Origin: Chromera velia
Lineage: Eukaryota > Sar > Chromeraceae
Length of the DNA stretch: 54,812 nucleotides
NCBI GenBank assembly: GCA_018398765.1
Contig: JAHBMJ010000180.1
Location: forward strand, 1 to 54,812
Direction of reading: 5' to 3'
This document shows, piece by piece, positions 730 through 42,009 of this stretch. Each line of letters starts with the position of its first letter. The stretch's first letter is position 1. The notes beneath the pieces are model-generated. The model was given only the letters and a program-made list of their open reading frames with translations. It was not told where the DNA came from and made no database searches. A program made the translations under genes and the position numbers.

Positions 730-1825
730 CTGAAGAAGAAGAAGAAGCGAATCGCGATCGATCGACAAGCTTCTGTTCGATTGACAAAAAAGATTCAGTC
801 TGTCAACCAACTCGATCGTCTTGCTCGGGCTGAGGGACGGTTGCAGTTCCTCTCAAACAGATTCTTGATCGACTTCGCACTTGTAGCAGCAGTATGATGT
901 CGTGGTCAAGCTGTCAGAGAGGCTCAGACTTTCAGATTCAAACTGAAAACGCAAGTTAAAGACTGGCGTCAGCTAGCACAGTTAAGTTGGAATTTGAAGA
1001 AATTAAATTGAAGAGACGGCTGTGTCGGCCGGGGCGCGCGCAAAGGGAATGCCACTGCAGCAATCTGCAGCACGCTGCAGCAACAATCAGCAACATGCAT
1101 GCATGCAGAGAGACGCGCGAGCTTTGACGACCTTTAAATTGGAGCTGTCAGACAGTCAGAGTCGCCTCGAGTAACATGAGTCGAGTTCAACAGATTCGTT
1201 GTCCTCTTCAAAGCTTTCACGGAGTACTTCGACCACCTTGCAGCTTGCTCTACCCTACATTTAAAGACCAGCATTGAATTTGAAGGGCTTCTTGATTGTC
1301 TCTTGCCTCTCAAGTCTCCATATCGATATACGGCCTTTGTTTGTCTCTGAAGGGACTGCTGCATCGATCAGGAGGCTTTGACTCCTTTGCGCGAGTGTGA
1401 CAGACAGAGTTCGACATAGAAGCATCCGGCAGCATCACCAAATCAAGGCGCTGATCTGTCCTTCAGATTCTCCAACAGAAGCGCACTAATCGTGCACTGT
1501 CTAGGGAAGGGAGAAAACTACGAAGCTGTTCGCAACCAAGTTGCGCAAGGAGTTTCCAACCGTCCCTACACGTGCGCTTCGACTTCATCCACATCTGTTG
1601 TGAAGGTCACCCTGACGACCCCCTCGAATATCGTCAAATATCGAATCAAGTCAGTGGGAGAGTGAACTTAAAGGCAGACTTTTGCGATCACTGTGTTGCT
1701 CGAGCTCTGCAGACGTTTCAACATTCACTCTTCGCTCTGGCAAGGTCGAAGCACACATGGCGTTTGGCTTTTGATGTGCGTGCAGAGGTCAATCGGGAGC
1801 TCATTCCCGTCAACTTGACGTATAT
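591..1825. other. No supported gene; GAA microsatellite inside
   Basis: The stretch holds a perfect (GAA)n run at about 686-728, which creates poly-Ser and poly-Glu shadow frames on the two strands. The remainder is mixed sequence with short open frames only. It includes the upstream region of the CBM20/zinc-repeat gene. A TATATA string lies directly before that gene's ATG, too close to act as a normal TATA box. Confidence 0.6.
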
Positions 1826-3871
1826 ATGAGTATCAAGATGATGGAAGCGGAGACGGGTGTTGTGCTTTTTGCCTGTTCCGGTGTGGAGCCTCGGGAGGGG
1901 CAGACGCTGGTGGTTGTCGGGAGCAGCTCTGAGCTCGGAGGGTGGGATGCGAGTCGCGGTATCACCCTCCATCGAGTGAAGAACCCTGCCTTCCCAGGCG
2001 TGTGGATGTCCTTTCCGATACGACACAGTGCTTGTTCTGAAGCCCGATTTCAGTTTGCCCTTGTCACACCAAGTGCCGTCACTGAGTCTCTTGAATCAAG
2101 GACGTTTGACGACCGAAGATTGGTGGTAGACGGTCTCAAATCCTCATCTGCAGTCATTTCAACCATCTCAACAGCAGCTCCTTCACACAGTCGAAGTCAG
2201 GACTGTTGTTGGTGCGTGTGGGGGGAGCCTTTGGGGTGTGTGCCGCGGGAGGTGGAGGTCGTCGCTGGTGGGTATGCGTTGTTTGGTGGGCGTTGGGGAG
2301 ATGGAGATACACAAGTGACTCCGTTGAGATTGGAAGACATGGTGTTAGCGCAGCAGCAACTGGAAAAGGACACGCCCCCTTCTGACTCCTCAAAGTTCGA
2401 GACTGACAAAGAGAATGAGTGGGAGGGGAAGGGTGCGGGTGGAGGCGGAAACTTCAGGGGTCTCTCTGAGGGCGACCTGATGGTCAGCGACGTCTCTGGA
2501 AAGACCGACAGTGCTCTTTCTGAGTCTTCTCCGATTTGCACTTCGCCACAAAGAGCGGGTGAGAGCGGAAAAGAGGAGGGATGTGAAAGTGCAGTTCAGG
2601 TTGACGATGAGTTTTCCGCCCGCAAAAGCCATGTGTCACAACAGACGGTTGTTGGTGTGGGAGTCGCACCTGCCTCCGAGAATGCAGATATTCTGATGGT
2701 GTGTGGTCACGGCGCTGAGTGTGACAGCGTGTGTGTGCCCGCGGGTTACAATCATCTGAAGACCGATTCTGCGATTCTGCAGCGGGGAGGGGGTGAGTTG
2801 AGGGGGGTAAGGGGGGGGGTCGGATTTCGATTTGCACCTGCAGCTCTGAATAGACGGAAAAATGAGAGGGTGAATGGGGGGCAAGGTCTGTCGGGAGGGA
2901 AGGCTGCAGAGACGGGGGGAGCGGTGAATCTTCTGGCGGGGAGAGTTGGGAAGAGTCGGTCGGTCTCCCGAGAGTCCTTGCCAGAGAGAAAGTGTCCCTC
3001 TGCCGTGTGTGATGGTCCGAAGCGCCGCCGTCTCTCTTCTCTTTCCGTTGCCGTCTCCGAATCTCAGTCTGACATGTCATTGAGAAGAGGTGAACAGACG
3101 TTGATATTTCCCTGTCCGTCTATCCCACAGCAGCACTCCCGTTTTCCGAAGACCCGTCTCTCCTTTGACACCGTCGGAATGAACCAGGCCGACGGCGCAT
3201 GTCAGCGTGAGGCTGCAGTCTGCGGATTGTCCGAAGAGGAGGAAACGCAAAAGGGATCGACAAATTGGGGGGGAAACACCACCAAGGCTGCCAAGAGACC
3301 CCTCCGCCCCCCTGACCGCTGTCACTCAGACTGCAGGGGTGCAGAGAGGAAGCACCTCGTCGCTTGCAACAGGGACGTCCAGCAGCACCCCGCGGGTAGA
3401 GACGGTAGCACTGAAAACATTGGTGTAAGAAGAAAGGGGAAAAAGAGAGAGCACACAGGAGAGGTCAAGAGAGACCGGCACGGAAACATCCTATGTCCAC
3501 ATGGACGGGTTCGCTCTACATGCAAAGAGTGCGGAGGGAAGAGCATCTGCGACCACGGTCGCGAACGCAGGAAGTGCAAGGAGTGCGGAGGGAAGAGCAT
3601 CTGCCAGCACGGCAGGGAGCGATACAGGTGCAAGGAGTGTGGAGGAAAGGGCATCTGTGAGCATGGTCGCAGGCGAACCGAGTGCAAGGACTGCGGAGGG
3701 AAGGATATTTGTGAGCACGGCCGGCGCCGACACAGTTGCAAGGAGTGCGGAGGGAAGGGTATTTGTGAGCACGGCCGGCAGCGCTACGTTTGCAAAGATT
3801 GTGGAGCGAAGGATGAGGGTCTAAGGATCGGTCTTATGATTGGTTGCGGCTCTAAACCTGTAGAATTGTAA
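1826..3871 (+). CDS. CBM20-like starch-binding protein with six CxH-CxxC repeats
   Basis: A single uninterrupted frame of 681 residues. Residues ~10-105 resemble a CBM20 starch-binding domain: a beta strand with LVVVGSSSELGGWD, then GITL, PGVW and a later FQFAL strand, matching the family's 'vGs..eLG.Wd' opening and W-containing sites. Residues ~110-550 are low-complexity (Ser, Gly, Glu, basic) and probably disordered. Residues ~556-665 (DNA ~3491-3816) hold six 18-residue repeats of the form ICxHGRxRxxCKxCGGK. Each has one Cys-x-His and one Cys-x2-Cys pair, so each could hold one zinc ion. Similar repeats occur in alveolate and other algal proteins; their function is not known to me. Start: the first ATG in frame, 24 residues before the CBM20 core. 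A role in binding starch granules or glucan while the zinc repeats hold a partner is inference. No signal peptide is seen, so a cytosolic site is likeliest. Confidence 0.8.
   Translation: MSIKMMEAETGVVLFACSGVEPREGQTLVVVGSSSELGGWDASRGITLHRVKNPAFPGVWMSFPIRHSACSEARFQFALVTPSAVTESLESRTFDDRRLVVDGLKSSSAVISTISTAAPSHSRSQDCCWCVWGEPLGCVPREVEVVAGGYALFGGRWGDGDTQVTPLRLEDMVLAQQQLEKDTPPSDSSKFETDKENEWEGKGAGGGGNFRGLSEGDLMVSDVSGKTDSALSESSPICTSPQRAGESGKEEGCESAVQVDDEFSARKSHVSQQTVVGVGVAPASENADILMVCGHGAECDSVCVPAGYNHLKTDSAILQRGGGELRGVRGGVGFRFAPAALNRRKNERVNGGQGLSGGKAAETGGAVNLLAGRVGKSRSVSRESLPERKCPSAVCDGPKRRRLSSLSVAVSESQSDMSLRRGEQTLIFPCPSIPQQHSRFPKTRLSFDTVGMNQADGACQREAAVCGLSEEEETQKGSTNWGGNTTKAAKRPLRPPDRCHSDCRGAERKHLVACNRDVQQHPAGRDGSTENIGVRRKGKKREHTGEVKRDRHGNILCPHGRVRSTCKECGGKSICDHGRERRKCKECGGKSICQHGRERYRCKECGGKGICEHGRRRTECKDCGGKDICEHGRRRHSCKECGGKGICEHGRQRYVCKDCGAKDEGLRIGLMIGCGSKPVEL
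3491..3816 (+). repeat. Six coding tandem repeats, 54-bp unit
   Basis: The DNA repeats every 54 bases and encodes the 18-residue Cys/His units of the CBM20 gene. Copies two to six share most bases, including synonymous positions such as tgcggagggaag, which suggests recent unit duplication or gene conversion. The spacing of Cys and His is constant, so selection appears to hold the zinc-binding pattern. Confidence 0.85.
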
Positions 3872-13021: not shown

Positions 13022-16000
13022 CTATTGGCTGCGCGCTCGTGCAGCAGCCTCGTCGCACAAGCGAACAATGCAGTCGACTTCATCCATCACGACGCGAAGG
13101 CCGGGAGTCCTTCGGTTCTGCTTGTTTGGAGAAGATCCGGAGGCGGTCACTGAAAGTTTCTGTAGGTGATGCGACTCGACTCTTTGCTCCCAGCGCTTGC
13201 TTGCGTCAGTTTCTACTCGAAATACACCTCTTTCGTCCCTTCCTCCAAAATCAGGCATTAATTCGCAAGAGTGATTTCGAGCCATCTTGGAGGCACGGGG
13301 GTGGGAGTCTGAGCGCAGGGCAAAGTCTGGGAAGGACTGGCGGCTAGAGAGGCCGTGCGGGCCGTCGTGCGCGCCGTCACAGTCCAGTCGCAGGTCCACA
13401 TTCACTCCACCCCTTCCCTCCTCCTTTTGGGACCCCATCCGGCTACTGCGCCCCTCCCTCCTTGTGCCGTCGTTCGTTCTGGTTACCGCCTTCCTTCTGT
13501 TGGAGGGGGAGGAGACAGATACTTCGAGGATCGTCTGAGGCTCCTCATCCGTCTCGTTCCTCCCCCTTCTCCCATGTGAGATGTGCCCAATTTCTTCCTC
13601 TTCCTCAAGCACTCCCTCCACAGAGTGACTTCTCCTGTATCCTTTCGACCCCCGGGAAGGCGGTGCAGGTATACGGACAGACATTCGGGAAATGAGCATC
13701 TGACGTCGGGACGAGGACGAGCAGGAATCTCTCCTCTCACTCCTCTCGTCTCTGTCTCTGCCGACCGATACTGACACAGTCCTCTCCCTCTCTGTCGATT
13801 TCCCTTTCGGTGTCGTCTGCCTCAGAGCATCTCTCTCAGTCTCACTCCCATGCATCCTTCGTCTTATGCCGACCTCTCGGTGTGAGTCTGCGGGTGGCTG
13901 GCGGGAGGCAACAGAGAAAGGCGCGGTCTTGCTGAGCTGCTGGTTTCTCGATTGGAATGCAGCGTTCCAACTGGAGGGAGAAAGGGGGTCAGGGAGGTGA
14001 GAGGGCAATGGAGAAACTTGGGTGGGATGGTCCGGCAACAATCTACGAGAGGGCAAAGAGAGGCCGCCTGCGGCTGCTGCTGCTGTTGGCGTCTGTAGGG
14101 AGCACTCAGCCATTGTTCCTTCTCTGTTTGAAGATGTGAGCAGACGCTTCTGCGCGTTTTGAAGCTGTGAGGGAGAAAGAGCAGAAGGCTGGCAAGGCTC
14201 TTGTAGAGCTGGAGTGGGAGTGAGTTGAGGTGGGCCGAGTGAGGGGAGGGCACAGGATCCTCCCAGTGTTGTCGGTGCGGGTGTGGGGGTGTCAGAATGG
14301 ACGGGCATGGCGGAGACTGCCTGTGGAACCGAAGGGCTGAGCAAAGAGGGGGAACGGTCTGTTAAGGTGTAAGAGGGGTGTGCTGAAGGGGGTGTGGGGA
14401 CGATCCGTGTTCGACTTGGACGTCTTTCTTGTTCTGGTTTGGGAATGGATGGGGAGTCTGGCAGGAGGACGGGATTTTCGGACTCTTCTCTCTTCTCACC
14501 AGACTTTTCACTTTTCTCTTCCTGCTGACTTTCATTCCCCAGGACTTCGTTATGTTCCTCTCCCCTCAACGGGGCTTTTACAAGGGGTGGACAAACGCTC
14601 GAAGAGGAAAGAGAGTCAGTTGGATTGCTACTGCTTTTTTGGGTTCCGGATCCCATGGAGTCAGTTGGGTCTTTGTTAGTCAGCTGCTGGGTCTTCGAAC
14701 GGGCAGTGACAAGCTCAAAGGAGTCTGTGGCAGACGAGGCTGCTGAAGCTGAGAGGAAAGCAGAGTCATCTTCCGCGCCCTTCTCTGCAGAAGATTTATC
14801 CTCTTCATCTTTTTCGCTTCCTTTCTCTTCCTTTGCCTGCGGACTGTCCTCGGCTCTGTGTTTTCCCCCGCTCTTACTCATTTCCTCGCAGACTTTGCTG
14901 CCTTCTTCTTCTTCTTCTCCCTCCTTTTTCTGTGTGACGCTTTCGACTCCTTTCTCTTCCTTTAACTTTCTCTTCATCCCCCCGTCCTGCATTCCTTCGC
15001 CTTCTGCATCCCCATCCCCCTCCTTCACTGCTTCTTTTTCTCCCTCCATCACAAGAAGAGAGGAATCGCAGCTCGGCTTTTTCTTAACATCTTCCCCCTT
15101 CCGAGGGTGAGACGAGTCCCTCAGAGATTCTTCCAGAGACTCTAAAGCCTCGAACGAGTCGGAACCCCCGCCTCTTTGAAGACAACCGAGCGAAGAAGAA
15201 GAGGAGGATATATCAGAACTCCGGCCCGCGTGTTTTGAACCAGGCGGCTCGGCTCCCCTTGAAACAGCCGGGAGCGTTAGGGTTTTTCTTTCAGCCACAG
15301 GTGCGTCGGGTGTGACGCAGGCTGACTCTGTGAAATTTCTTACACGGTCTTCAGTAAGGCTGTCTGACCCCGTTCCTTCTCCCTCAATCTCTTCTTCTAT
15401 CTCTTCCACCTCATCGCACTCTGCTGCCTCCTTCTCCTTTTTCTTTTCCCTTGCCCCATTTGATGAAGGCGAAGAAGAAGAAGAAGAAGAAGCACTACAG
15501 GAATCTGAGGCTGAAGACGCAGAGAGCGCATCGGGAACCCCAAAATTCGCCGTCGGCACAGACCGAACGATAGTACCTGCGGCCTCCTGACCCCTCCCTG
15601 CAGTGCCAGCCCCCCTCCCCTTCCCTTCTGACGGAGGGCCGGTGACCTTGATTACTCTAGTCAGGGGGACGGGAGAGGAGGGGGCCGCTGCTGGGCGTGC
15701 AGGTGACTGTGCAGATGATTCCCTTCCCCCTTTTGTTTTGTCCTTTTCAGACGGAATTGCTGATGAAAGGGCGTTGTCACCTTCTGGCCCCTTGCCCTCA
15801 AGAGCAGCAAGAAGGAAAAGGCCACCGGGGGGGTTTACGGAAGAGGATGAAGATGCTTTTTCTCTTTCTGCTTCTTCGAGAGTCGCAGTGGGAACACTGA
15901 TTTTCTTCTCGGAAGAAAAAGAAGACGAATAGCATTCTTCCCCTTCTTCAATTTCTGCAGGTGCCTCGGGGGGGACAGAGGGGCCCCCTTGCCTGCCTTC

Positions 16001-19000
16001 AAGCGTGGTCTCTTCTTGCTTCCCCGCCTGTTTTGGCGCTTCCTTCGGCAGGACATCTGCGAAGGAATCGGAAACCTCTCTCACTGTCTTGCGCTGCACA
16101 TTCCCGACTGCTGTCTGACTATTTTTTTCCTCTATTGATGATGTCATTCTGCTGTTCAGTTGTGGCACTGCTTCTTCGATGCTTTTTTTCTCTTTTTGGC
16201 TCTCACTCTTCTGCTGGGGGTTGCTAGAAAGAGAAAGAGAGGACCTTCCTCTTCGCTGCTGCTCTTTCTGTTCTTCCTCCTTTGTTCCTTCCTCTCGGCT
16301 CTTGGTTGCTTCGGGTTGCTTCGAGTCGGGGGATGGTCCCTCTCTCCTCTTTTGTTTCTGTTCGGAACCTCTGAAAGAAGAAGCGACGCCAGAAGAGAGG
16401 AGACCGGAAGTACAAGAGGAAGAAGGCACGGGAGGAGGGGCCTCTTTCTCTTGTGTCTCTTCGTGCACAGCTAATGGCTGCCTTTCCTCGGACAGAATGG
16501 AAGTCTGGAGAGGCGGTCCAAGGGGAGTGTGGGGGACTTCTCCCTCGGGGTGGCTTTGTGTCGGCTCGGCAGCTTTCCCCGATTGGATTCGAAAGTTCTG
16601 ACCGGGAGATTTCAAGTCACTCTGTTGATCCCTCTCCCGCCCCTCGTCTTCTTCTTCTTCTTCTAAAATTGGGATTGGAAGGGAGGCAGCATCTTTTGGT
16701 CTCTCCGTGTCTGACACCTTTTGGGAATATGTCAGGCTCGGCTCTCTACCTTCCTTTTTCCCTTTCTCTTCTTCCTCTGTACTCCGACTGAAAGTCAATT
16801 CCTCCTCCGCCTGCACGATGAGGTGACCTAGCCCCGCACCAGCTCCGTGAGAGGATCTCGAGGCAGCATGGGTCTGCGGCCTTGGGGGAGGAAGTGGAGA
16901 CTCGGAGGGTGTTAGCAGTTGAGCATCCGGTGCTTGCGGCTCTTGTGCTTGCTTTTGGTGATGAGGAGACGGAGGGAGCATGGGGGGAATTTTTGAGGGA
17001 GACTGGAATGCTGCACCCCGACTTGGGGAGAAGTGGGGGCGTGTATGGGTCTCTTGGGCTCTGTCTGATGGATCCGCTGCTGTCAAAATGGAGCTTTGTC
17101 TCTGCTGAGTCGGACTCCACTCGTTTGGGGACCCCCACTTTTCTGAATGATTCTGTTGTAAATGTGTAGTCGAGTAAGGAGAGTGGCGGGAGGGGGAGAC
17201 GACAGCAACGGGACGGGGGGGCTCTCGCTGGCCCCGGAAAGCATTATTCTGTGTCGGAGAGTTGATCATGGCTTGCATAGAGAAGGCGGTGTAGGGAGCA
17301 GAGGAAATATGTACAGGGACAAAATCACTTAAACTCTCCGGAAGGGACGACAAAACAGCATACCCCTTCAGCCAGCCGTCCCTTGCAAGGCCACCCTCCC
17401 CCACTTCTCCGGCTACACCTTGGAACCCCGGTGGGCGAGACGGAAAGTCTGAAGCACCCCTGAAACCTTTCAGAAACGCTTTGACTGCCTCTGCAGCTTC
17501 AGGGGTGTCCTCCTGCCCACCCAGCGCCCCTGACAGCGCTGCAGCAGTTGTCATGGCGGGTTGAGAGACTGATTTGGCCGTCAGGGGTGATGCATCTGAA
17601 AAGGGAATCTGGGTAGACATCATCATTCTCCCACTGTCCATCATCTCTCGTTGTTGGGATGGTGACAGGGGTGCTGCCTTCATCTTTTGGAATCCTGGGA
17701 CTCGCCCCCCTTCCTGCTGTGCGAAGCTCTGCTGGGCCATTCCAAGCGCTCTCTCCTCTTCCAACCGGCCTCTGTCTCTGCGGGGAGACTTCAATCCATC
17801 AGTAATCGAGGCGGCCCCTCCATTTCTCTCCATCAATGCGACCTGCTCTTTCAGTTCATGATTTTCCTGAGAATCGAGAGGGGAGGAGAGGAGAGGAAAG
17901 GAGGGAGAGCAACAGGAAGGACAATTATGTGCCACGCATCAAACGGACGAATGGATACATGGATGGATGGAAGGACAGGAGGACAGAGAGTACTGAGAGC
18001 AGACTCCTCAGCAAGAAATGAACCTGGTGAAGAGGAATGGTGACAAAGAATGAAGATGACTCACAACGAAGTCTTGAAGGCGTCTTTCCGAGGCCGTGTT
18101 CAAGAGGAGAGATGAAAAGAGAGTGATCCGGAGGGAATATATAGGAGCTCGGCTTCACCTGGCTTAGTCATTCATCCATTCATTCATTCATTCATTCATT
18201 CATTTGGAAAGAAAGACGTTGTCGAGTGTCTAGACATTTGACTGACCACGTAAAGGCAATCACAAAGCTCTTTGTAGAGAGCCAACGCCGCGCCTGTCTC
18301 GTCCCCCTCCTCCTCCGCCCCTTTCCACCGTGCTCGGTCTCTTTCTCTTTCCCTTTCCAGGTCCTCCTTGGTGCATCCCACTCCACTCCCACCCACTGAA
18401 CGGGAGGGAGGATCCACCTTGGCATCGAGAGTGCTCACAGCTGTTTTCTCTCTTTCATTTCTGCGGCGATCAACTGCTCCAGGCACCCGGCGGCTCGTCC
18501 AGACACCGGCCCTGTTGGGCAGAAATGGGGATTCGAAAGTACGCGCCTGCATCTTGCTGGAGGAGTCTTCCGCCTCTCCGTGTCTCTTCATCATGATTTG
18601 TTCCATTGCAGAGACGGGAGGGGAATTTGAAGACGCTCTCGGACACAGGACACGGTGCACCTCCCGCAGGAAAGTGAGGAGACACGATGCGGAATCCGGT
18701 GTAAGATCAAAAAAGAGTGAGAGAAGTGCAGGCAGAGCGGCAGGCTGCTCCTTTAGCCTCGCATCTCCGCTGGCCACTTCCACAAGAGCGGACGACCGCG
18801 CTCGGTCAAGTAGGGGAGCTGCATGCAGTGCGAAGTCACGCCAGGGATTGGACGGTGAAAACAGAAAGAAAGGGAGGTAGGGAGGGAGGGAGGAAACCTC
18901 CAAATAAAAAGTAAAAGAGAAGATCGATCAAAGGCATGGACGCGGAGAATAACCAGAGAGGGAGTGCGGGCCAGGGAGGCAGAGAGAAGAAAAAGTTCAG

Positions 19001-29541: not shown

Positions 29542-31861
29542 CTAGAGTTCTTCCCTCACGGGCTGGTCTTTCTCCTCCCACTCAATTCCCACAATGTACC
29601 TCATGATCTTGCCCAGCATGTCCATTGCTGTGATTGCGGGGTGGGCGTGGTCTTCGTTGTAGTCCAACTCCATCTTTTCTATCCCCCTTTGACCCTCCCT
29701 GGTGACCCACACCTCAATGTACGGAAAATACTTCACATTGTAGCAAGGCGTGGAGCCGCAATCGATTGTTGCTACCTTTGCAACACCCTCCGCCTTCTGT
29801 GCCACTTTCCGCAAAGCTGATTGAACTCTATGACATGGGGGGCAACCAGGTTTGTAAAAGTCCGCAATCCAGACAGACGAGATCGAACCAGGACCCCTCG
29901 ACTTTCCCGTTTTTACCACAGGCTGCGACACCCTCTTTTCCAACTCTCTGATCGATTTGGCCTGCACGACTAACTGACGGGCAGATTCCTTTGCGGCCGT
30001 GAGAAGAGTCTTGGGGTCCATCGGACCTCCGTACTCTTCAAAGTCAAACCCTCCTGCGCCGAACTGGTTAGGGGGGAATACGTAGACGACTCCTGCAAGT
30101 AACATGAGGAGAGAGCAGGATATTCTTTTTGCCCTTATTCTTGTCAGAACTTCTTGGGAGATCGTCCAGCTGGTTGGGTGAGGGGGCAACGACAACTCTT
30201 GCAAGATAAGAAAATTCGAGAATCGCCTTGCGAATAAGATTGAGATGTACACACACACACACACACACACACAGACACACACACACACACGAACGAAGAC
30301 AGAGAGAGAGGGAGAGATGCAAGACCTCTGTTTCCGCACCGTCCTCTGCTTCTTTTACATACACACCAGACAAGGGACAAGGGAAAAGAAAAAAAGAAAA
30401 GGAGGAAACCAAAAAAGGAAAAAAGAAGAAACAGATCGCGCGAGCTGTGTGTGTGAAAGAAAGGGAATCCGTGTGTCTGTGTGTGTGGAATAGAAAACAA
30501 AAGCACCCTTCATGAAGGAGAACAGAAAAGCAAGGGAGATGACAAAAGGGCAGCGAGGGAGGAAGGGAGGGAGGAAAGGGAACAAAAAGATCGACGCAAG
30601 AAAGAAGTCCATGCAAGGGACGAACGGACCGTAGTGGCTGACGCCAAATCGGTGGCACTGCCGGACATCGAAAGCGCAGTTGACGGCTCCGATTCGAATT
30701 TTGTTGAATTTCGGGTTGTCGTGAGTCATCTTGGCTGCTGCTGCGAGTTTGGGCATGTTCTGCAACAAGTACCGAAGGGCAAGCAGTAGGCAGCAGGGAA
30801 AACAAAATGGGATAGCTAGGGATCAACCCAGGTGGTCACACATGCATGATGAAGAGTCAGTGACTGTCCGAGGAGGGCGAGGCCACTCAACCCGGCTGGA
30901 CGAAAGGGCGGGGGGATGAGGTCGGAGAGCGGGGAGGAAAGAGAGGAAACGCTTACGAAAGAAGGTGGACAGAAGGACAAAGGAGACCAACAAAAACGAA
31001 ACGAATGGGCCAAAGGGCAGGCACAAATTGAGTGACAGAGCTCGGGAAAAGCAGAGGCAAAAAAAAGCAACGGAAGGAAAGGAGGAGGGTTGAAGAGGAC
31101 GTGAGGTCAGCAAGGGGGTGTGTAGGGGGNGGGGGGGGGGGGGGAATAGATGGAAAGACAGCAGGGGAAGACAGTGAGGCAGAAAAATGTTCGGTCACAG
31201 CAAATGGATTCCTTGAGGTAGAAACGAGGTATCCGGAGATACTTTACGGACTGAAAAGGCGTCCAGGAGGAGACAGAGAGAGAGAAACTGGCAAGCCGCC
31301 CGCAGGAACAGGGAGAGAGACGGAAGCATGTGGTGATCCTCAATCCAATTCTGCACGGGGGGCAGCAGGGCGCAAAAAAAGGCTGTGACTGACCGCATGA
31401 CAGCCCCCACAGTTTGGATGATAAAAGGTGACCAGCCAGACGTTTTCACTCCGTGTGAGCAGTTCATCGATGTTTGCTCTCCACATCAGAGCAACATAAG
31501 GCTTCCCCTTGTACAGATCTGACAGTCTCATACTCCGAAGTTGCGTGGCGTAGTCCTTCACCTGCTCCCACTTCATTCCTGTCCAGTCATCATGACCGTA
31601 CTCGTCATATATTGATTTCGATGACGCATCTGAGAGGATCTCATAGGCAGCGGCAATTTCCGAGAATATCCTCTGAGCATCTTTTTCTTTGTTTTTGTCT
31701 GGGTGATATTGCATGGACAGTTTTCTGTATTGTTTCTTGATGTCACTTATTGTCGCCCCCCTGTCCAGCTGCAACACTTTGTAAAAGTCTCCGCTTGCCA
31801 GCGACCTCCAGAAAGAAAGGAATTTGACAAGCAGACATAACAGAACTGAATGGTTCCACAT
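29542..31861 (-). CDS. ER J-protein with two thioredoxin-like domains (ERdj5-like)
   Basis: Exons 31861-31394, 30759-30630 and 30092-29542 join in phases 0 and 1 to give ~382 residues. Residues 1-22 form a hydrophobic signal peptide (WNHSVLLCLLVKFLSF). Residues ~24-90 are a J domain (FYKVLQLDRGATISDIKKQY) with the HPD motif at 53-55 for stimulating an Hsp70/BiP. A first thioredoxin-like domain has CGGC at ~152-155 (TFYHPNCGGCH), and a second has CPPC at ~283-286 (ADFYKPGCPPCH). The protein ends VREEL, close to KDEL-type ER retention signals. This is the plan of ERdj5/DNAJC10, which reduces wrong disulphides for ER-associated degradation, but with two thioredoxin domains where animal ERdj5 has more. 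An upstream in-frame ATG at 31903 is possible, but 31861 places the signal peptide at the start. Intron 1 contains an ambiguous base in a G-run at ~31130. Confidence 0.85.
30246..30291. repeat. CA dinucleotide microsatellite
   Basis: A (CA)n run with one CAGA interruption in intron 2 of the J-protein gene, followed by a GA-rich tract. Confidence 0.9.
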
Positions 31862-32663
31862 TGTCGGAACCGAACAACAGCTGGCTTGGAGGAAAAAGAT
31901 CAAGTACCAAAGCCAACTCTCCGTCTACCTGGGAGGTGAAAGGGCGGGATGAACAGTAAAGAGGACCTCTCTTCGCGACATGCATGCAGCTCTCGTAGTG
32001 GAATGCTTTGCTCTAACAGCTTGCCTGTCGTGTTTGGACAATGTTTGGACAGCGGATTAATTGTCAAGTGCGAAAGTAGATTTTGTGACACTGAGGCAAG
32101 CTGCATGGACCCTCAGTACGAGCGCATTTTGCGCGCGACGAATATAGCCCGATGCCGATGCATGCAGGACCCGCGCGGCCCGGCGGCGCGCGGCCACGGG
32201 TCCGAGTTATTAAAACGCGCATTCGAATTCACTGCAGCTGGGCTATGCTTGCTAGACTTGAGAACTGTCAGATTCAAGCAATGAGGGATCCATTCGCTCC
32301 ACTGAGATGATGCTGGAACTCTTGACTGTAGGGGTCCTTAGCAAAGCGTTACCAGAAGGAGGGACAGCTTGATTGATATTTGTGGTGTTCAGCACCTAGC
32401 TGTCTGCATGAGAGAATCCGGCTGCCTCGTTTGCACTCTCTCGACGTAGGAGCCTTTCCGACGACAACCTGAACGATGAAAACGAAACGAGGGAATTTTA
32501 GATTGTGAGCAGACACAAATTTATAGAGATGCGGCTTTTTTGTATAGAAGATCACCCAAGAGAGCCGTGGCACAGCGCAGTGCTTTGTGAGAAATAGCTG
32601 ACCTATCAATGCCGTCTCCGACTTTTGCCATCCAACGTATTTCGTTTCAACTGAACATGCCAT
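31862..32663. promoter_or_regulatory. Shared upstream region of J-protein and helicase-PARP genes
   Basis: The two genes are head-to-head, 0.8 kb apart. A short very GC-rich, partly palindromic block (gcgcggcccggcggcgcgcgg) lies at about 32173-32195. The remainder is ordinary. Use as a bidirectional promoter is inferred from layout; no defined motif is seen. Confidence 0.35.
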
Positions 32664-35600
32664 GTGCCGTCTCACACCTCCTCTATCACATGCATTGAAT
32701 GCAGCCGCAAGAAGAGAAGGGAGGATGGGAATCAAGGAAACGGACAAGGGCGGGCCGTCCTGCGAAGCGCACAAGAAGTTGGGCAGGCTTCTCGAGGACC
32801 CCAACAAAGTTCCCTTCCGGGCCCGAGGGTCATCCTGCAGCAGAATCCGCAGGCCCACGCGGCACTTCAGCAGAGGCCAAATGAGGGCCAGAGACACGTC
32901 TCCATGAAGAAGCATACGGGGACAGCAGCTGCCAACGCCCCAGCTCATTTCTTTCCTGCCACCGGATTTGGCCCAGTGCCGTCTCCTCACCTTCCCCCCC
33001 CCAGTCTGTCCCATGCGGGGCTTGGAGAGAGACAGGGGACTTGGGCGGAGGGATCCGTGGTCAGGTCGGGGAGCGGAGGGGGTGTGAACTGGAAGAGGCC
33101 GCATGCTGGGGAGGAAGGCCTTCGCCATGCAGGAGAGCATGGACACAGCAAGCGAAGAAGAGACGTGGAGACGGAAGGCAAAGGGGAGGCGCTCAGGTGA
33201 GCACAGAGACTCATGTTCATGAAGGAATGCATCAACAAAGTCACGCTGACCCTGTAATTTAATTGATGCAAGCAGTTAGTGGTTGCATTTCTGTGCCGTC
33301 AACAGAGGTGGCAGCTCGTTTTGGCTTTCTTTCTGCATCACTGCGGGTAACTCATTTTCTTTCTTTCACTCAGCCTCTTTCTTGTGTCTACCTCTCCCTC
33401 TCCTCCATCCCCTTGTTCTTCTGCTCGTCCTTGCACTCTTCCTTCCCCTTTTTTCTGTACGTTTCCCCCCACTCGCCTCCTTCCCTCTGTGCGTGCAGAT
33501 TTCCTCCGGAAGAACTTCGTCGGTCAACTACAGACCCATCAAGTCGCTCGCGCGCCACGGGGGTTCCATCTGATATCCTCGTTCCGGATTCAGTCAGTGT
33601 GAGCTCCACTGGCCTCACTCATCAGAGACAGATCACCGCGGGCAGAATGGACCGCCCATTCCCGGTCCCCCCCCTGCAGGCGCCTCAGCTTTTCCTTCAA
33701 CCGTCTGCTGCAGCAGGTGGGGAGAGAAGAGATAGCGGCAGGAAGACCGAGAGGGGCAGTAGACGGGAAGGAAAACGTAAGTGGAAAGGCGCAGCTGGTC
33801 CGCTGGAGGAGGGGGAGAGGGACATGAGTGGTCTGGGAGGGGTTCGTGGGGGAAAAGAGGTCCGGAAAAGGGACTTGGGAGGTGGGCAGAGGGGAGAGCC
33901 TGATCGGAGAAAAGAGGAGGGGCAGGGGGACTTGAAACGGAAAAAGACGTTCCACGCAAAAGAGACATTCAGACCAGAACAAAGCAGAGATTGGCTTCAA
34001 ATCCCTCATGACGGGATCCGTAACGGTTTGGTAGTTTTCATAAAACAGGAACAGCAGCAGCAGCAGCAGCAGCAAGGGAGACCAAAGGCATCCGGTGAAG
34101 GGGATGGAAACGGAGGTCTTCCTGCCGCAGCTTCTTCAGCCGCAGCCTCTAGCCAACAGCCGTCAGTGCAGTCTCTGAGTGGAGTGGGAGGGGGAGGTAG
34201 AGGTACATTTTTTGGCTTCATCAAGGAAGATACTCAGATGGATCAAGCGGGAGGGGAAAGGAGGGCGGGTGAGGGAGGGGGGCAAAATGCTGACCGTGAG
34301 TCTGACTTCTATTTTCGTAGCAACGAGTACCTTGATAAGGAGGGCCCTTCATTAAAAGAGGGCGACAGGGTCAGTTTCAGGGCTTCTCAGCAAGTCCGCG
34401 GAGGGGGGGGGGGAACGGGAAAGAGGGCAAGTGGGGAGAAAGGGAAAAGAGCTCCCCGAAGAACCGCCACTTCTGTGGGTATACAGAGATACAACCCCGT
34501 CAAGAGGGATGCCGTAGAGGTGTTAAACTTTCTTTCCGCTATCCCTCACACAGAGCAGTCAGAGGGGGAGCAGGTGGGGGGGCCTTCCAACGAGGTGAAT
34601 GGGCACGCACAACAAATGGAATGGGTCGCTGGCTCCCGGCCCTTCTGGGTTCTCGTGGCCGAGATCCTGCAACAGACTGTCCTCTCCAGTGCACCCGCAC
34701 CGTCTGCACAGGGACATGCAGAAAGTGAAAAAGAGCACGAAGAAACTGCAGTCCAGTTGTTTCGCACCGCAGTCGCCCTTCTTCAACGTTTTCCGGAAAA
34801 CGGTCTCGACCAGTCAGTACCGGTGGGTTGGTTGATGAAAGTGGTCTGTGTCCTCTCTCAGCGACATTTACAGGGGGAGTCCGCAGGGGTCTTCTGGGAA
34901 TGTTTGGTGGGGGACCTGAAGAAAGATTCTAGCGGGTGTGCCTCAGGGAGCACGGCAGCTTTGCTCCAGGTGGCGGGACGTGTATGTCCGCATCTACTGG
35001 AGATGGCGATGCCCCTGCTGCGGACTGCCGTTGGTGAGGGTGCAGGGGCATCCAGTGTTGCTCTAACATTGCTGGACTGTATGGACGGGCTGAGCGCCGC
35101 CCTCTCAAAGGTGAGTGAAAGATCAGCTAGACTAGTCATTGATCACCGTTGATGTAAATGAGACAGCGGTCCAGGTCTGCACCAGTGTATCGGGGTAGTC
35201 AGAAGGCTGAAAGAAGCACAAGAACCTGCGTGCACAGGCAGCCCTGGCGTTTTGGATTCCATGAGACTCCAATTTTGCCTTTTCCGGTTTCACTGGTTCT
35301 GCAGCGACAGGGACATCTTTGTGTGTTTGCATGATCTTAGTGCAGAATGTATACTTTTGTTCAATAAGGTTCGATCACTGTAACTATATTCCCGTGTTCC
35401 TGTACCTATGTCTTTTGATTCCCACTTTTGCAGGGGCGTGACGGGCCCCGCCACTTCCGGAGACTCCCCGAGATCCTCACCCCGACAGAGCTCGAAAAGG
35501 GGTTGGGAGTTGGCAGACAGAGGGGAGGGCGTCTGGAAGCTCTGGATGATCAGCGGGGCGATGCTCTTCTTCTTCCCCTCCCAGTTGCGCGGAGAGAGGG

Positions 35601-37236
35601 CGCATATCCATCCGGGGACTCGTACTTGGACACGCAGGTGCGGCTCCTGAGAGCTTTGTGCTTCCAGCCACTGCAGGAGGCAGTGTCTGACTTTCTTTCT
35701 GGGACCCAAAACACAGGGGTGTACTCTGTGCGACTCGTCCGTCTCCGACCGAAAGAAGGCTCTTTGCAGTTGGTCCTGAAGCTGAAAGACTATTGGGGGA
35801 AGGATATCAATTGGAGAAGGGAGAAAAAGAGAATGATGCCGGGAAATCTGGTTGTCGTCTCCCGAGACGGCACCTTCAAAGACTGGCCGCTGCTCTGGCT
35901 GACTGTTGCAGAGCGGAATGAAGCGATCCTCGATGCAGAGAAGCTTGTTGCTTTGGAATTCTGCCAGCCTTCAGATATCTTCCAGGCTATGAGGCTGAGG
36001 GGACGAAAGATGGTTGCTCTGGAGTCCCCCAGCTTCTACAAAGCCCACGCCCCCGTCATTCGCTGTCTCCAGCAGATTCCAAGTCACAAAATCCCGTTCG
36101 CGATTGAAATTGTAAACCTCCAGCGCCCTGCCGAGAAGACTGAGACAGAGCCGAAGGAGCATTTGGAGTTGGTGGCAGAGGGAGCGGAGGAATCTGCAGG
36201 GGGCAGTGAAAGTGCGGGAACTGAAACTGAAGGGCAAGAAGCGGTCGGCATCCCAGCAAGTGACAGACTATCCCAGAACCTCCCTGTGGATCCCCAACTG
36301 AAAGAATGGCTTGACCAAATTGAAGGCGGAGAGGGCAACGTGCCAGTCAAATTGAGGAAAGGGGGGCGGGGGTGTATGATATTACAAACGAGGATTGTGA
36401 TATTGAAACTGTTCAGCTGAACGGCAGCCAGATAGAGGCGCTTCGTCACGTGTTGGAGAACAGACTTGGAATCGTGCAGGGTCCTCCGGGCACTGGGCAG
36501 ACGACCGTCGCCATGACCGTCATCCGGTTGCTGTTGGAGAAGGTCAGAGGGGATTCGACAGGACATCCTCTTCTACTCGCCTTCTCGCTTTTCCTTCTTG
36601 TCTTGTTTCTTCACTTCGCTTTGTTCCAAAAACCACTGAACACGGTCATAAGAGTAACGCTTGACCCCTTGGGCTTTCTTTGGGAAGCTACACACCAAGG
36701 CCTGGACTTGTGTGTCTGTATGTTGCACTCTCTATCTTCCGTGCTCGTGCAGAGTAGGAGCCCTACCCGAATTCTTATCCTGGCGTACAAGAACTTTGCG
36801 CTCGACGATCTGTTGTGCAAGCTGATCCGTGCTCCCTTCATTGAGGGTCGGACTGCACGACTGGGGAGACGGTCTCCGGATTTTCCCGACGTCGAGAAGA
36901 GAAATCTTAACGAGGTAGGTCAGAGAAGGGCTTCGATGCGGCAATTGTTGTTGTCTTTCCAACCCAAGGCCGAGGTGTGTGCCGTGCATTTCCTGTGGCA
37001 TAGATGATACTTGAAAAAGACTGCAAAGAGCTGCAAGCACACAGCTGGCTGCAGGACGGTAGGCAGTCTCTAGTCACCGAAGCTCTCTCTGTTGGAATGA
37101 TAAGGCGTGCCTTTCATTCATTCAGTTGTGAAAATCCCGCAACTCCTGAAAGCACATTCCCTTATCTCAGCGTCCTTCTGTGTGTTTCTTTTTGATGTCT
37201 GATTATCTCTCTGTTTCCCTCCCCTCCTCTGTGTGC

Positions 37237-37269
<33 letters not shown>

Positions 37270-40200
37270 TTGGTGGTGGTTGCAGATAAAGAGGAGAGAG
37301 CGGGAGGCCGCGGAACGGCATCGCAGAGACGGGACTTATGGCCAGACCCGCTCGCAGATCTCCTTCAACACCGATGAGATGCAAAAGGCGGCACGACAGC
37401 TCCAAGAGGCGCATTCCTTTCATCCAGATTTCCTGATTGCCGTTTGCGAATTCCCCCTCCTCAGGGACCTTCTGCAAGCAGTGATGCAGAAACTTCCCTC
37501 TATGCCACCAGATCTTGACCGTGCACTATCCGTCCTTACTCAGCTCGCAGCTGACTACGGATATTTTGACGATTCAGACGCTGACGTCCTCCTGGATGAT
37601 TCTCTCCCACGAAAAGACCCCACAGCAGTCGCGGCAGCCCACCAGCAGGACTTTCAGAGCTCAGTCCCGTACACAGAGAGGTCATCCGCGGGGAAAGAAA
37701 GAAACATTCAGTGGGCTGGGACGTTCGGTGATTTGGTTTTTTCCAGAGAGACGTGCGAACGTCACAGAGAGGACACAAGAGACGATTTTCAGTGTCTGGT
37801 CTACCACCTTCGAAAAGCAGTAGAATTTTGGTTACCGGGTCTGAACGAATTTGATCAGGTTGCCTCGCGAGCTGCTGCAAGCAAGCATCAATGCAAGTTC
37901 GATTCCCTCTCGTTTGACGAGAAGGACCAAAACTGCAGCGGTGGCCCCCACGGGTCTTCTTTTCTTGAAGAGATTGAAGGCGGGAGAAGAGGAAGGGGCA
38001 GTAGGCCCTGGGGCGAATCATCGAATGGGTGCAGCACGAGAGGCAAGAAATAGGGGATGGGGAGGAATCGGAGGACGACGACGATTTATTGAGGGAGCGG
38101 GAGCTGGCACTCGGGCTTGGGGGGGGGTCTGGGCCCTTCGGTTCCCAGACAGATCCTCGACAGGTCTGCGAGGAGTTCTTGGAGGAGACCGTCTGCATTG
38201 ACCCTGAAGGGAAGGGGAAAGGCAACACCTGTTTCTGGCTTGCTCCATCGTGCTTCGGCAGGTGTGTGGGAGATGGAAAACAAGTTGAGGGTTCTGTGGG
38301 TGCAGGGGCTGATGGGGGAGCGTGTGGCAAGGGCAGAAAGTGCTCTTGAAAAGACCGTCACGGAAGGTGAAGAGCTGAACAAAATCCTCAAGTCTGCTAC
38401 CAAGAGGGAAGAGCTCGCAGTGCTGGGAAAGATGCAGGTGGGCCGGCAGGCATCACAATTTGCCTTTCTGCTGCTGAGAGTCAAAGATGCATAACGTGAG
38501 AACCGCATCTTCTTCGCTCTTTTTTCTTTCGAGAACCCTCTGGTGTCCCCTTTTGCATGATTTCCTGCTGAACGTTTGCATGAATGCGCGCTGCAGCATC
38601 TGAAGGTATTGACACCCTTATCCTCTTTGCAGATTCTCGGGGCAACCACCACGGGAGCTGCGATCAACCAAGAACTGATCTCTGCCTGGCAGCCCACTGT
38701 CGTTCTCTTCGAGGAAGCCGGAGAGATCCTCGAACCCCAAACCCTCGCGTGCCTCCCCCCTAGCGTCCGACAGCTTATCCTCATAGGGGACCACCAGCAG
38801 CTGCCCCCTCATGTTGACAGCTACCGTCTGAGGAAGGAACACAACTTCTCTCTCTCTCTCATGGAGAGACTCATCCTCAATAAATTCACCTATGCGCCTC
38901 TCCAGGTGCAGTGCCGCATGCACCCAGACATCAGTTTGCACCTCCGAGACATATACCCGAGTCTGAAAGACGCCCCTGGACTTGAAAACGAGCGCCCTCT
39001 CCCCGGCTGTACGAAACACCGCATTTTTTGGTGGTCGCACCAGGAGAGGGAGGCAGAGGGAATGCGATTGTATTCGAATGAAGGGGAGGCTAGGCGTGCA
39101 GTGGCTCTCTTCTTCTGGCTGTGCCTGCAGGGAGTACCACCAGAGAAGATCACAATTCTCGCTCCATACGCCTCTCAAGTCGCTGTCTTGCGACGGCTCC
39201 TGGTCAGAAAGAGCTCGAAGCAGGCGTACGGGGGAGCGATGAGAGCCCAAACGCAGACTCTAAGCGCCCCCTCTCCCTCTGCTCCGGCAGCCTCAGGGCC
39301 GTGGAGATGGGTTGAAGACCCGAAGGGCTCCTCTAGGGGAACCAGCGGAGGGCGTCCCCCCACTGTGACAGCTTTTGGCTCTGATTCCGCTTCCGAATCT
39401 GTCGGAGGAAAAAAGCAAAACAAGGCAGAGGGAGGAGGAAAGGAAGAACAGGACCTCCGGTCGAGGGTTCAGGTTCTCGATCGTTATCAGGGTCAAGAGA
39501 ATGAACACATCATCCTTTCCCTCACGCGTTCGAACCCGAAAAGAAAAACTGGTTTCCTCGACATGGAGAGGGAGGGAATTGCCCGTCGGTGTGTTGCCCA
39601 GTCCCGCGCCCGCAGTAGTTTGTACATTCTTGGAAATTTAGACACTTTCGAATTCCGAGAAACGCGCGATGGGTCAAGTTGGGGGGCAGACAGCAGTGAA
39701 ACAGGCAAGCAATTCAAGTCTAAGGTATGGGGTGTGTTAGTGGATTCGCTACGGGTGCACGACCAGCTGGGTTCCGATTTCGTCCTCTGCTGCCCCCGGC
39801 ATCTCGAGACTACTCTGAAGGTGGGGTCCTCCGAGGAGATCCCCCGCACAGAGGGAATTCTGTGCACCGCTCGCTGTGCTTGCACGATGGGATGCCAGGT
39901 GCATCTCTGTCCGCGTAAGTGCCATGCGATCCACCAGGCTGACCACTCGCCTGCCGAGTGTCGTGAGCGTGTTGAGTTTGAGTGTGCAGAGTGTGGGGCA
40001 CCTCTAGAGCGCGAGTGCTCGGAGGATGTTGCAAGCGTGAAATGCAAAAAGTTGGTCGATTGTCTTTGTATCAAGGGAAGTCACAAGGTGATGAAAGTCT
40101 GCTCAGCAAAAGAGCCGCCCGTCTGCCTTCAGCCCTGCACAAAGAAGGTGGAAGTCTGTGGACATGCATGCACAGAGAATGTAATGCACCGTGCATTTCT

Positions 40201-42009
40201 CGTGAGGATTGTCCTGAGTGCATTAGGCTGGAAAGGGAGAGACAGAAAATTGCCGAGGAAGAGGCAAGGAAGGAGAGGGAGAGGGAGGCCGAGGAGGCAA
40301 AGAAAGAGGTCGAGGAGATTTGGAGGCTCCACAGAGAGGAAGGATTTTCCCTCTCCACCGTGTCGCCCTCCTCTCATGATTGGAGGCCTCTAGAGAACAC
40401 CGTCCGTTCTCTCATCCAACCCACGGCAGCCGGCATCACTGTGTCGCTCGCCTCAGCCCAGAAAATTACAGACCACAAGGCCCGGGCGGCGTGGCTGCGA
40501 AAGAAGGTGCAGATATTGACGCAGAGGAAAGATGCGCACCCACAGCCCTTGCCGTCTCTGCTCCCCCTTCCCGTCTCTGTATCAGCAGGAGGAAAAGGCT
40601 CAGATGCTGTCACGGAGGAAGGACAAACCATTGCTAGGGGGGGGTTGAAGGCTGCTGCCGCGATGGGCCGCCGCCTTCTTGTCTTGTCACCAACTGGTGC
40701 GAGATTGGAGAAGGGAAGTGGAGAGGCCTCCACTGTACCGCTGTCATTGCTCGTCTCCACAGTTTCAGAAACAGTCTCTGCAGCAGTCACAGCGGCGCGT
40801 GGGGAGGGCAGCACGTCGGACCGTCTTTTTCATGCAGTCATCTTTGATATTCTTCCGGGCAAGCTCGGACCGTTTGTCAACAACGAAGGGGAAGGGGGTC
40901 GCTCTCTAGTTACATTCCAAAATTTGATTTCACATGGTGCATCGAGAGTTGACCAAAAAAATCCGATTCAGCCCCCTCCGCCTCCCTCTCCCCCTCCTCC
41001 TCCCCCCTTTGACTCTCTGGAAGTCGCAGCCGAGGGAGGAAAGGGAAGGTTTATCATCCCTCTCGACAGTGCTCAAACGCTTCCTGTCGCTCTTGTTTCG
41101 GTCCGTCTGGCACGTTCGGCTGCCCCCCTCTCCGCCTCCATTCCCTCCCACTGGACGTTGCAGACTGACGAAAAGACGGTCCGTCGGATGATTCCCGTTT
41201 CCGATTCAGAGAGAGAGGCTCTGCAGGGATGTCTGGCCATCAGTCTAGAGAACCTCGCAGGTAGAGACAGATCAGCCGTGCCTCAACACCGCAGTCTGGA
41301 GGTAGCAGCAGCATGGCGCATTGAGCACCCCGTCCTGTGGGCAAAGTTTTGTGTGGAGAGAGGGCAGGTGTGTGCCTTTTTGAATGACCTCCGAGATCAG
41401 GAAGGGGTGGGATCCGTCCTGTTGACGAAGAGTCCGAACATCAGCACGGTGTTGAAGGCCGCCACAGAAAAGCTCCCCGGAGACTGTTTTGAGGGCGAGG
41501 CAGGAGAAGTGCGGCTTCTCCATGGAACGAAGGCCAACCTGGTCACGGCAATTCTGTCGGGGGGATTGAACGAGAGGTACAGTGAGGGGCTTTTCGGACG
41601 CGGTACGTATTTTGCAGAAGATGCGACAAAGTGCGATCAGTACGTGAGTGCATCTCGACACGATGGCGAACTAGGCAAACTTCTCTGCGAAGGCGCGGGG
41701 GCGTCCCGGCCTCCGGGAGAGTTGTTCTATCTCTTCGTCTGTAGAGTCGTGTTGGGACTGCCACAGTTCACTCGAGATGGTTCCACGAGCAGCCACGGGG
41801 ATGAGAGCACAAGGGGGAAAGAGATCTTTTCGAATGCTGGCTCAAAGCATGAATTGACAGTCATTCCCGGCTCAGACCCGCCCACAGAGTTTCACAGTCT
41901 GATTGCAGAGGCAGGAAGCGACTGTCGCGTGGCTCGTTTCCGAGAATTCGTGCAGTTTCACAGCGATCGCATCTATCCGGAATATCTGATTGCGTACACG
42001 AGAAAGTAA
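32664..42009 (+). CDS. ZNFX1-like SF1 helicase with NFX1 zinc fingers fused to PARP
   Basis: Probable exons: 32664-33196, 33499-35110, 35434-36542, 36753-36914, 37004-37072, 37286-37858, 38005-~38138, 38262-38437 and 38633-42009, ~2,580 residues. The end of exon 7 and the exact start are unsure. Order: disordered N-terminus; a ZNFX1-type entry region (DSYLDTQVRLLRALCFQPL); Walker A GPPGTGQT at ~36480; motif Ia-like LAYKNFALDDLL; motif II VLFEEAGEILEPQT; GDHQQLPPHVD; QCRMHP; DRYQGQENEHIILSLTRSNP; and VAQSRARSSLYILGN. Cys/His-rich NFX1-type fingers follow (~39860-40230). Then come a Glu/Arg coiled coil, a Pro run and a PARP domain (WRIEHPVLWAKF, LLHGTK, GRGTYFAEDA, YPEYLIAY) with His-Tyr-Glu triad. 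ZNFX1 binds RNA in small-RNA and antiviral pathways; PARPs transfer ADP-ribose. The frame breaks at ~36360 and ~40175 and Walker A Lys is Gln, so a decayed gene or assembly errors are possible. Confidence 0.75.
37236..37281. repeat. GT dinucleotide run at an intron end
   Basis: A (GT)n tract, then TTGGTGGTGG, lies directly before the TTGCAG acceptor of the helicase-PARP exon at 37286. This acceptor lacks the usual pyrimidine tract. Confidence 0.85.
41510..42006 (+). other. PARP catalytic domain within the helicase fusion
   Basis: A continuous frame carries the three ADP-ribosyl transferase signature residues. His is in LLHGTKANL (~41520), Tyr in GRGTYFAEDATKCDQY (~41605) and Glu in YPEYLIAYTR just before the stop. 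H-Y-E is the triad of poly(ADP-ribose)-forming PARPs such as tankyrase. The preceding WRIEHPVLWAKF matches the segment that normally opens the catalytic fold. There is no helical regulatory domain of the PARP1 kind, so it is closer to tankyrase/PARP14-type enzymes. Confidence 0.85.

Follow-up and report, generated by a model that had tools for sequence, protein, structure and literature searches.

According to passages of two articles (PMC11959080, PMC13270118), human ZNFX1 contains an ARM-type fold, a helicase, six fingers of the NFX1 type, and a coiled coil, and it ends in an RZ finger. The protein is described there as a ubiquitin ligase for which long single-stranded RNA with ATP is the trigger; two studies cited in these reviews disagree as to whether the RNA itself is marked. 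Portions of PMC2964712 and PMC8787094 present PARP13/ZAP and its relatives as RNA-directed antiviral factors. Here, we describe a gene region of the alga Chromera velia in which a ZNFX1-type helicase and a PARP catalytic domain appear to be joined. It lies, with a provisional 5' end, at positions 32,664–42,009 of the contig JAHBMJ010000180.1 (54,812 nucleotides), which was analyzed at its full length and is called the window hereafter. The window is the complete contig C179 of an assembly of 177.8 Mb in 4040 contigs, and other contigs are designated in the same manner.

Helicase-PARP fusions were looked for in the literature as well. "Helicase" appears once in PMC10450202, a survey of human PARPs, within the name of the RWD domain, and in the main text of the PARP census PMC2964712 neither "helicase" nor "NFX1" appears. 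No description of such a fusion was found among the open-licence PMC papers listed for the fusion itself or for ZNFX1 or PARP in protists.

Helicase, finger block and PARP domain of the window gene

All the features described in this section are on the plus strand, and nine open reading frame (ORF) pieces of the gene region were scanned against Pfam. The ZNFX1 domain (PF25396; 35710–36024) exceeded the cut-off of 27 bits in two scans (28.5 bits, 1.6e-6, in one and 31.4 bits in the other), and its ORF could be aligned with residues 446–626 of human ZNFX1 (7.1e-7), with no other solved relative at E up to 1. It is followed by the Walker A motif (36480–36503), by the motif Ia region of RecA1 (36762–36917), which matches AAA_11 and is 51% identical to C3448, and by segments that we take to be motifs II to IV (FEEAGE, GDHQQLPP, and QCRMHP; 38627–39202) and motifs V and VI (YQGQENE and VAQSRAR; 39437–39670). 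These assignments agree with the Pfam matches, with the alignment to human ZNFX1 (9q9z), and with the paralogs. One helicase ORF matched AAA_11 (4.6e-11), and the next matched both AAA_11 (2.4e-9) and AAA_12 (5.5e-26). Among solved structures, human ZNFX1 is closest to the helicase ORF (2.8e-46), and a splicing factor comes next (2.9e-21): ZNFX1 scored 161.6 bits, as compared with 79.0 for the pre-mRNA-splicing factor, 67.2 for Aquarius, 64.5 for NAM7, 60.5 for human UPF1, and 51.2 for SEN1. The ZNFX1 match extends past motif VI through the Cys/His region. Judged by these scores, the window helicase is of the ZNFX1 type, with Aquarius, UPF1, and SEN1 being more distant. An earlier note, made from the sequence without database searches, had named a helicase of the ZNFX1/UPF1 type; the PF25396 match and the best solved relative bear this out, and AAA_11 and AAA_12 confirm its helicase motifs. 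What it missed is that the Walker A motif reads GPPGTGQT, with K changed to Q (codons checked), while the paralogs on C3448, C2698, and C70 all retain GKT.

The Cys/His block (39780–40260) matches the block of human ZNFX1 (the third stretch of the ZNFX1 match, 49.6 bits). A finger spacing pattern, which was drawn up after the sequences had been viewed, is present in five of six stretches, and for those five between 0 and 11 of the 2000 shuffles equalled it; the sixth, a short window part in the PARP frame behind the frame change described below, did not match it. Pfam zf-NF-X1 gave no match in the window or paralog ORFs scanned; genome-wide, its matches above the cut-off are on C3029, outside the fusion family. 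The NFX1-type fingers of the earlier note can be kept as a finger-like block, by homology to ZNFX1 and by a post hoc spacing pattern; their NFX1 type is putative. A charged, coiled-coil-like stretch, as read from the sequence, follows at 40213–40340 in the PARP frame. The middle region (40660–41170) might be a degenerate ADP-ribosyltransferase (ART) domain; the hhalign comparison was not significant (P 0.07 to 0.16).

The PARP catalytic domain (PF00644; 41275–41997) was detected at 52.9 bits (4.3e-14; cut-off 26.7), and the nearest relative of its ORF was tankyrase-1 (4e-6). The codons of the H-Y-E triad were checked at 41521–41523 (H), 41608–41610 (Y), and 41980–41982 (E). The main segment of the tankyrase-1 alignment includes H and Y, and E aligns in a second, weak segment of 7.5 bits. 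The tankyrase-like PARP of the earlier note therefore holds for the catalytic domain and the triad; it does not extend to the tankyrase partners, as neither ankyrin nor SAM gave a Pfam match in the nine ORF pieces.

Further loci with the joined order

Matches to the helicase were found on at least 12 contigs and matches to PARP on at least 18, both numbers being lower bounds. Among the matches listed, four contigs carry both (the window, C3448, C2698, and C70), and these are the top four of the helicase matches listed (C70, 1.7e-30; the next contig, 5.1e-7). In a translated comparison, they share, collinearly, the order of ZNFX1-domain region, helicase, Cys/His block, and PARP, and the ZNFX1-domain region of the window aligns to C3448 (5.4e-13) and C2698 (6.2e-20). 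On C70, a stop-free frame of 632 amino acids (L047, 1613–3508, minus strand) contains motifs V–VI, the fingers, and PARP (AAA_12, 9.6e-17; PARP, 2.2e-21); by phmmer, its residues 37–223 match human ZNFX1 1266–1445, and PARP10 and tankyrase match from about residue 392. The frame upstream of it (770 amino acids; L047, 5608–7917, minus strand) matches ZNFX1 444–793 (1e-13), with no other solved relative at E up to 0.01. On C3448, the fingers and PARP (4.5e-13) are in a single frame of 826 amino acids, and C2698 has the same domain order, split by introns.

Since three further loci have the same order, and C70 has motifs V–VI, the fingers, and PARP in a single stop-free frame, the joining of helicase and PARP is supported as a family trait, and the fusion does not depend on the window copy, which looks damaged or mis-assembled. 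The occurrence of the joined order in other members had been named beforehand as a test, and the three further loci lie within the C. velia genome. The two frames in the window differ, and one could suspect a ZNFX1-like helicase gene with a PARP gene of its own next to it. However, the last finger runs on in the PARP frame, the fingers and PARP share one frame on C3448 and C70, and the order is common to four contigs, which makes this explanation highly improbable. As far as the sequence tells, the helicase-PARP architecture is strongly supported.

The relationships among the PARP domains were examined in a tree of 13 rows from 12 contigs, from which C15, C1027, C1982, C3702, C1315, and C226 were left out. 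The window, C3448, C2698, and C686 group together (90/89, not starred), and the two ART domains of C70 are placed elsewhere, on long branches. Inspection of the alignments by eye shows the triad E in the window, C3448, and C2698, and K and A in its place in the two C70 domains; C1600, C732, C735, and C487 have no E at this site, and the remaining rows end before it. The tree is compatible with one or several joining events alike. C686 is the next PARP match after the fusion family (4.5e-11), and no helicase match is listed on it.

Several observations were made on related loci. C686 (L054, 506–2443) carries its PARP behind what appear by eye to be three GRF-like zinc-finger repeats, in one frame of 646 amino acids; its high score in a later profile search was disregarded as circular, the profile having contained C686. 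The ART/PARP domains of C70 are in tandem (L047, minus strand, 1206–1664 and 1613–2554), the second in a different frame, and both show weak Tpt1/KptA matches (17.1 and 19.6 bits; cut-off 26). On C3779 there is a fifth ZNFX1-like helicase, for which human ZNFX1 (3.1e-5) is the sole solved relative at E up to 0.1 and behind which repeats resembling fingers were seen by eye. PARP is not among the matches listed for this contig, and none was found in the plus-strand ORFs of 28.0 to 42.8 kb. Of the other helicase matches in the genome, those on C529 and C1730 look by eye like SETX/SEN1 and UPF1 and those on C133 and C29 like the UPF1/SETX type; C245, C641, and C2637 are also among the matches listed.

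Outside C. velia, a scan of prokaryote genomes with the helicase alignment yielded 34 loci, of which 32 carry the title Euryarchaeota or Poseidoniales, and in none of the 34 did an ORF of 60 or more amino acids match the PARP profile of the family at E up to 1. No relative was confirmed in the viral contigs scanned. One locus (L066), on a contig labelled as a Deltaproteobacteria metagenome-assembled genome, looks eukaryotic and fungal-like by eye. Like the window, it has a ZNFX1-like helicase followed by Cys/His fingers; unlike the window, it then has AAA-like ATPase units across frames (by eye), and it gave no match to the family PARP profile.

Frame changes in the window copy

The earlier note had placed the last helicase motifs and PARP in the same exon. 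They are not in one reading frame: the helicase and finger frame (38561–40393) is frame 2, and the PARP frame (39982–42009) is frame 1, the open stretches overlapping by 412 bases. There is no ordinary-size intron between the helicase and fingers and PARP, and a frame change is required. The last finger starts in the helicase frame and ends in the other one, which also holds the coiled-coil-like stretch and PARP. Based on the finger spacing in C3448 and C2698 (by eye), the change most likely falls within this finger at the CATGCATGCA repeat (a CATG repeat; 40163–40172). A 26-base GT-AG intron at 40.17 kb was considered and rejected: it restores the frame, but by eye it deletes conserved finger residues, and it is far below the other introns of the window gene, which, also by eye, measure about 200 to 320 bases. 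Two more sites, one near 36.37 kb (next to a G run) and one at 38.00–38.05 kb, show a change of frame that no ordinary intron accompanies; another, near 38.26 kb, could be an intron.

As a control, we used a table of HSP70 matches in the same genome. These include long single-frame matches (599 of 599 positions on C4039; 514 positions each on C799 and C102), and the table, read by coordinates without inspection of the junctions, contains no tight frame change and a TGA in one of the 38 matches. A DNA search of the genome with 39700–40700 returned the window alone; no second copy was found. In all six pairs computed for PARP and the helicase, the third codon positions are the least conserved. 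Nucleotide identities at codon positions 1, 2, and 3 are 0.49–0.57, 0.60–0.63, and 0.34–0.39 for PARP and 0.48–0.57, 0.58–0.63, and 0.33–0.42 for the helicase. The PARP identities of the window to two paralogs are 0.418 and 0.427, and that between the paralogs is 0.450; for the helicase, the corresponding values are 0.469 and 0.449, and 0.407. The window copy is thus not clearly faster than its paralogs, and any decay of it is therefore probably recent.

Because its PARP triad is intact while Walker A is changed and the frame is broken, the window copy would be one of three things: a mis-assembled copy, a recently decayed one, or a helicase-dead, PARP-competent variant. It is quite conceivable that the gene is intact in the organism and that its frame changes arose in the assembly, as errors at short repeats and homopolymers. 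Two of the changes fall at the CATG repeat and beside the G run (about 36,360), and tight changes are found in C3448 and C2698 too. On the other hand, several occur in this one gene family and none in the HSP70 table, with the limit stated above, and the Walker A change is a substitution, not an insertion or deletion. Slightly weaker than this, in our view, is the possibility that the fusion family is real and that its member in the window is a young pseudogene or has a dead helicase. It would account for the K-to-Q change as well as for three or more frame changes that lack an ordinary intron, and the HSP70 matches show that frames in this genome can run long. Nevertheless, the window retains long stop-free stretches of 610 and 675 amino acids and the complete triad, and its rate is not clearly raised. 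Both possibilities are compatible with the existence of a helicase-PARP family.

Some other features of the window were noted. In the N-terminal part of the gene, 34000–34390 is tentatively a cold-shock-like (OB fold) stretch by eye (GFI ... DFYF ... GDRVSF); its ORF gave no Pfam match among the nine pieces. The N-terminal part of the C2698 paralog (L049, 4600–6858) matched CSD at 20.3 bits (5.3e-4), under the cut-off of 27. Elsewhere, 1775–3871 has a starch-binding-like start and then tandem ICxHGRxRxxCKxCGGK repeats (by eye), the minus strand of 29542–31924 has DnaJ-like and thioredoxin-like exons resembling ERdj5 (by eye), and the minus strand of 13022–17938 is a low-complexity, stop-free frame of 1638 amino acids.

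Proposed function and comparison with known systems

We consider it rather probable that the window gene is a member of a four-locus family in which a ZNFX1-type superfamily 1 (SF1) helicase with a C-terminal PARP/ART domain acts as an RNA-loaded writer of ADP-ribose. The helicase would load on RNA with ATP, as human ZNFX1 does; the fingers and the coiled coil may gather the particle; and the C-terminal part may mark the RNA, the bound proteins, or itself. The mark here would be ADP-ribose from NAD+, while it is ubiquitin in human ZNFX1. Both the enzymatic activity of the fusion proteins and its dependence on RNA are what we infer by analogy.

Several findings weigh against this family reading. 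The PF25396 cut-off is passed by the window alone, C2698 reaching 11.4 bits and C3448 and C70 giving no match. In the window, the frame must change at about 40.17 kb and at two or more other sites that lack an ordinary intron, and Walker A is altered; C3448 needs one tight frame change between the helicase and the fingers; C2698 shows at least one tight frame change; and C70 has a TGA between helicase motifs IV and V, for which 10 frame-keeping short-intron candidates make an intron possible, though unproven. Both ART domains of C70 are without the triad E. The five ART rows of the fusion loci do not form one group in the tree, where three changes are needed, a number matched by 79 of 500 shuffles. 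Lastly, in the reviews on human ZNFX1, the RZ finger is stated to be the ligase site for RNF213, not for ZNFX1.

The order of ZNFX1 is kept up to the coiled-coil-like stretch and is then followed by PARP, and no RZ finger was matched in the window and paralog ORFs scanned or, in a search without a positive control, genome-wide. We therefore propose a swap of the writer, by which the protein would be an RNA-triggered ADP-ribosyltransferase. More tentatively, this lineage may have exchanged the ubiquitin-writing end of ZNFX1 for an NAD+-using one. The product would be an ADP-ribosyltransferase activated by RNA, marking RNA that is foreign or aberrant, or the particles of such RNA, and it would exist in several paralogs, one of them with tandem ART domains. 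In the light of the passages on human ZNFX1, an RNA-defence or RNA-modifying role would be plausible. Alternatively, the PARP might serve in the nucleus or in DNA repair and modify proteins only (for example, itself), the helicase doing no more than localizing it. The H-Y-E triad and the nearness of the domain to tankyrase, which modifies proteins, would fit this; nevertheless, the partner domains are those of ZNFX1, which passages of PMC13270118 describe as RNA-triggered, and we regard this alternative as rather unlikely.

Human ZNFX1 is reported to link the sensing of RNA with a ubiquitin mark (PMC13270118). With PARP attached to a ZNFX1 core, the sensor would seem to be a module taking different writers, and the fusion would tie sensing by an RNA helicase directly to NAD+-based ADP-ribosylation. 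Four concrete genes are available for testing RNA-triggered ADP-ribosylation in a protist.

In comparison with the known systems, the PARP catalytic domain is, by its sequence, like those of tankyrase-1/2 and PARP10, with H-Y-E in the window copy, and the first ART domain of C70 is nearest to PARP10 and tankyrase; unlike these proteins, both C70 domains are without the third triad residue. Tankyrase has ankyrin repeats and a SAM domain, whereas the window protein has a helicase as the partner and no ankyrin or SAM match. As in PARP13/ZAP, which portions of PMC2964712 and PMC8787094 describe as RNA-related, zinc fingers stand ahead of PARP; PARP13/ZAP differs in its CCCH-type fingers and WWE domain and has no ZNFX1 core. 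Unlike human ZNFX1, for which the available passages give an RZ finger at the end, the family described here carries PARP (with the above limit of the RZ search). Like human ZNFX1 (9q9z), it has a ZNFX1-domain region, the two SF1 helicase halves, and a Cys/His block in this order, followed by a coiled-coil-like stretch.

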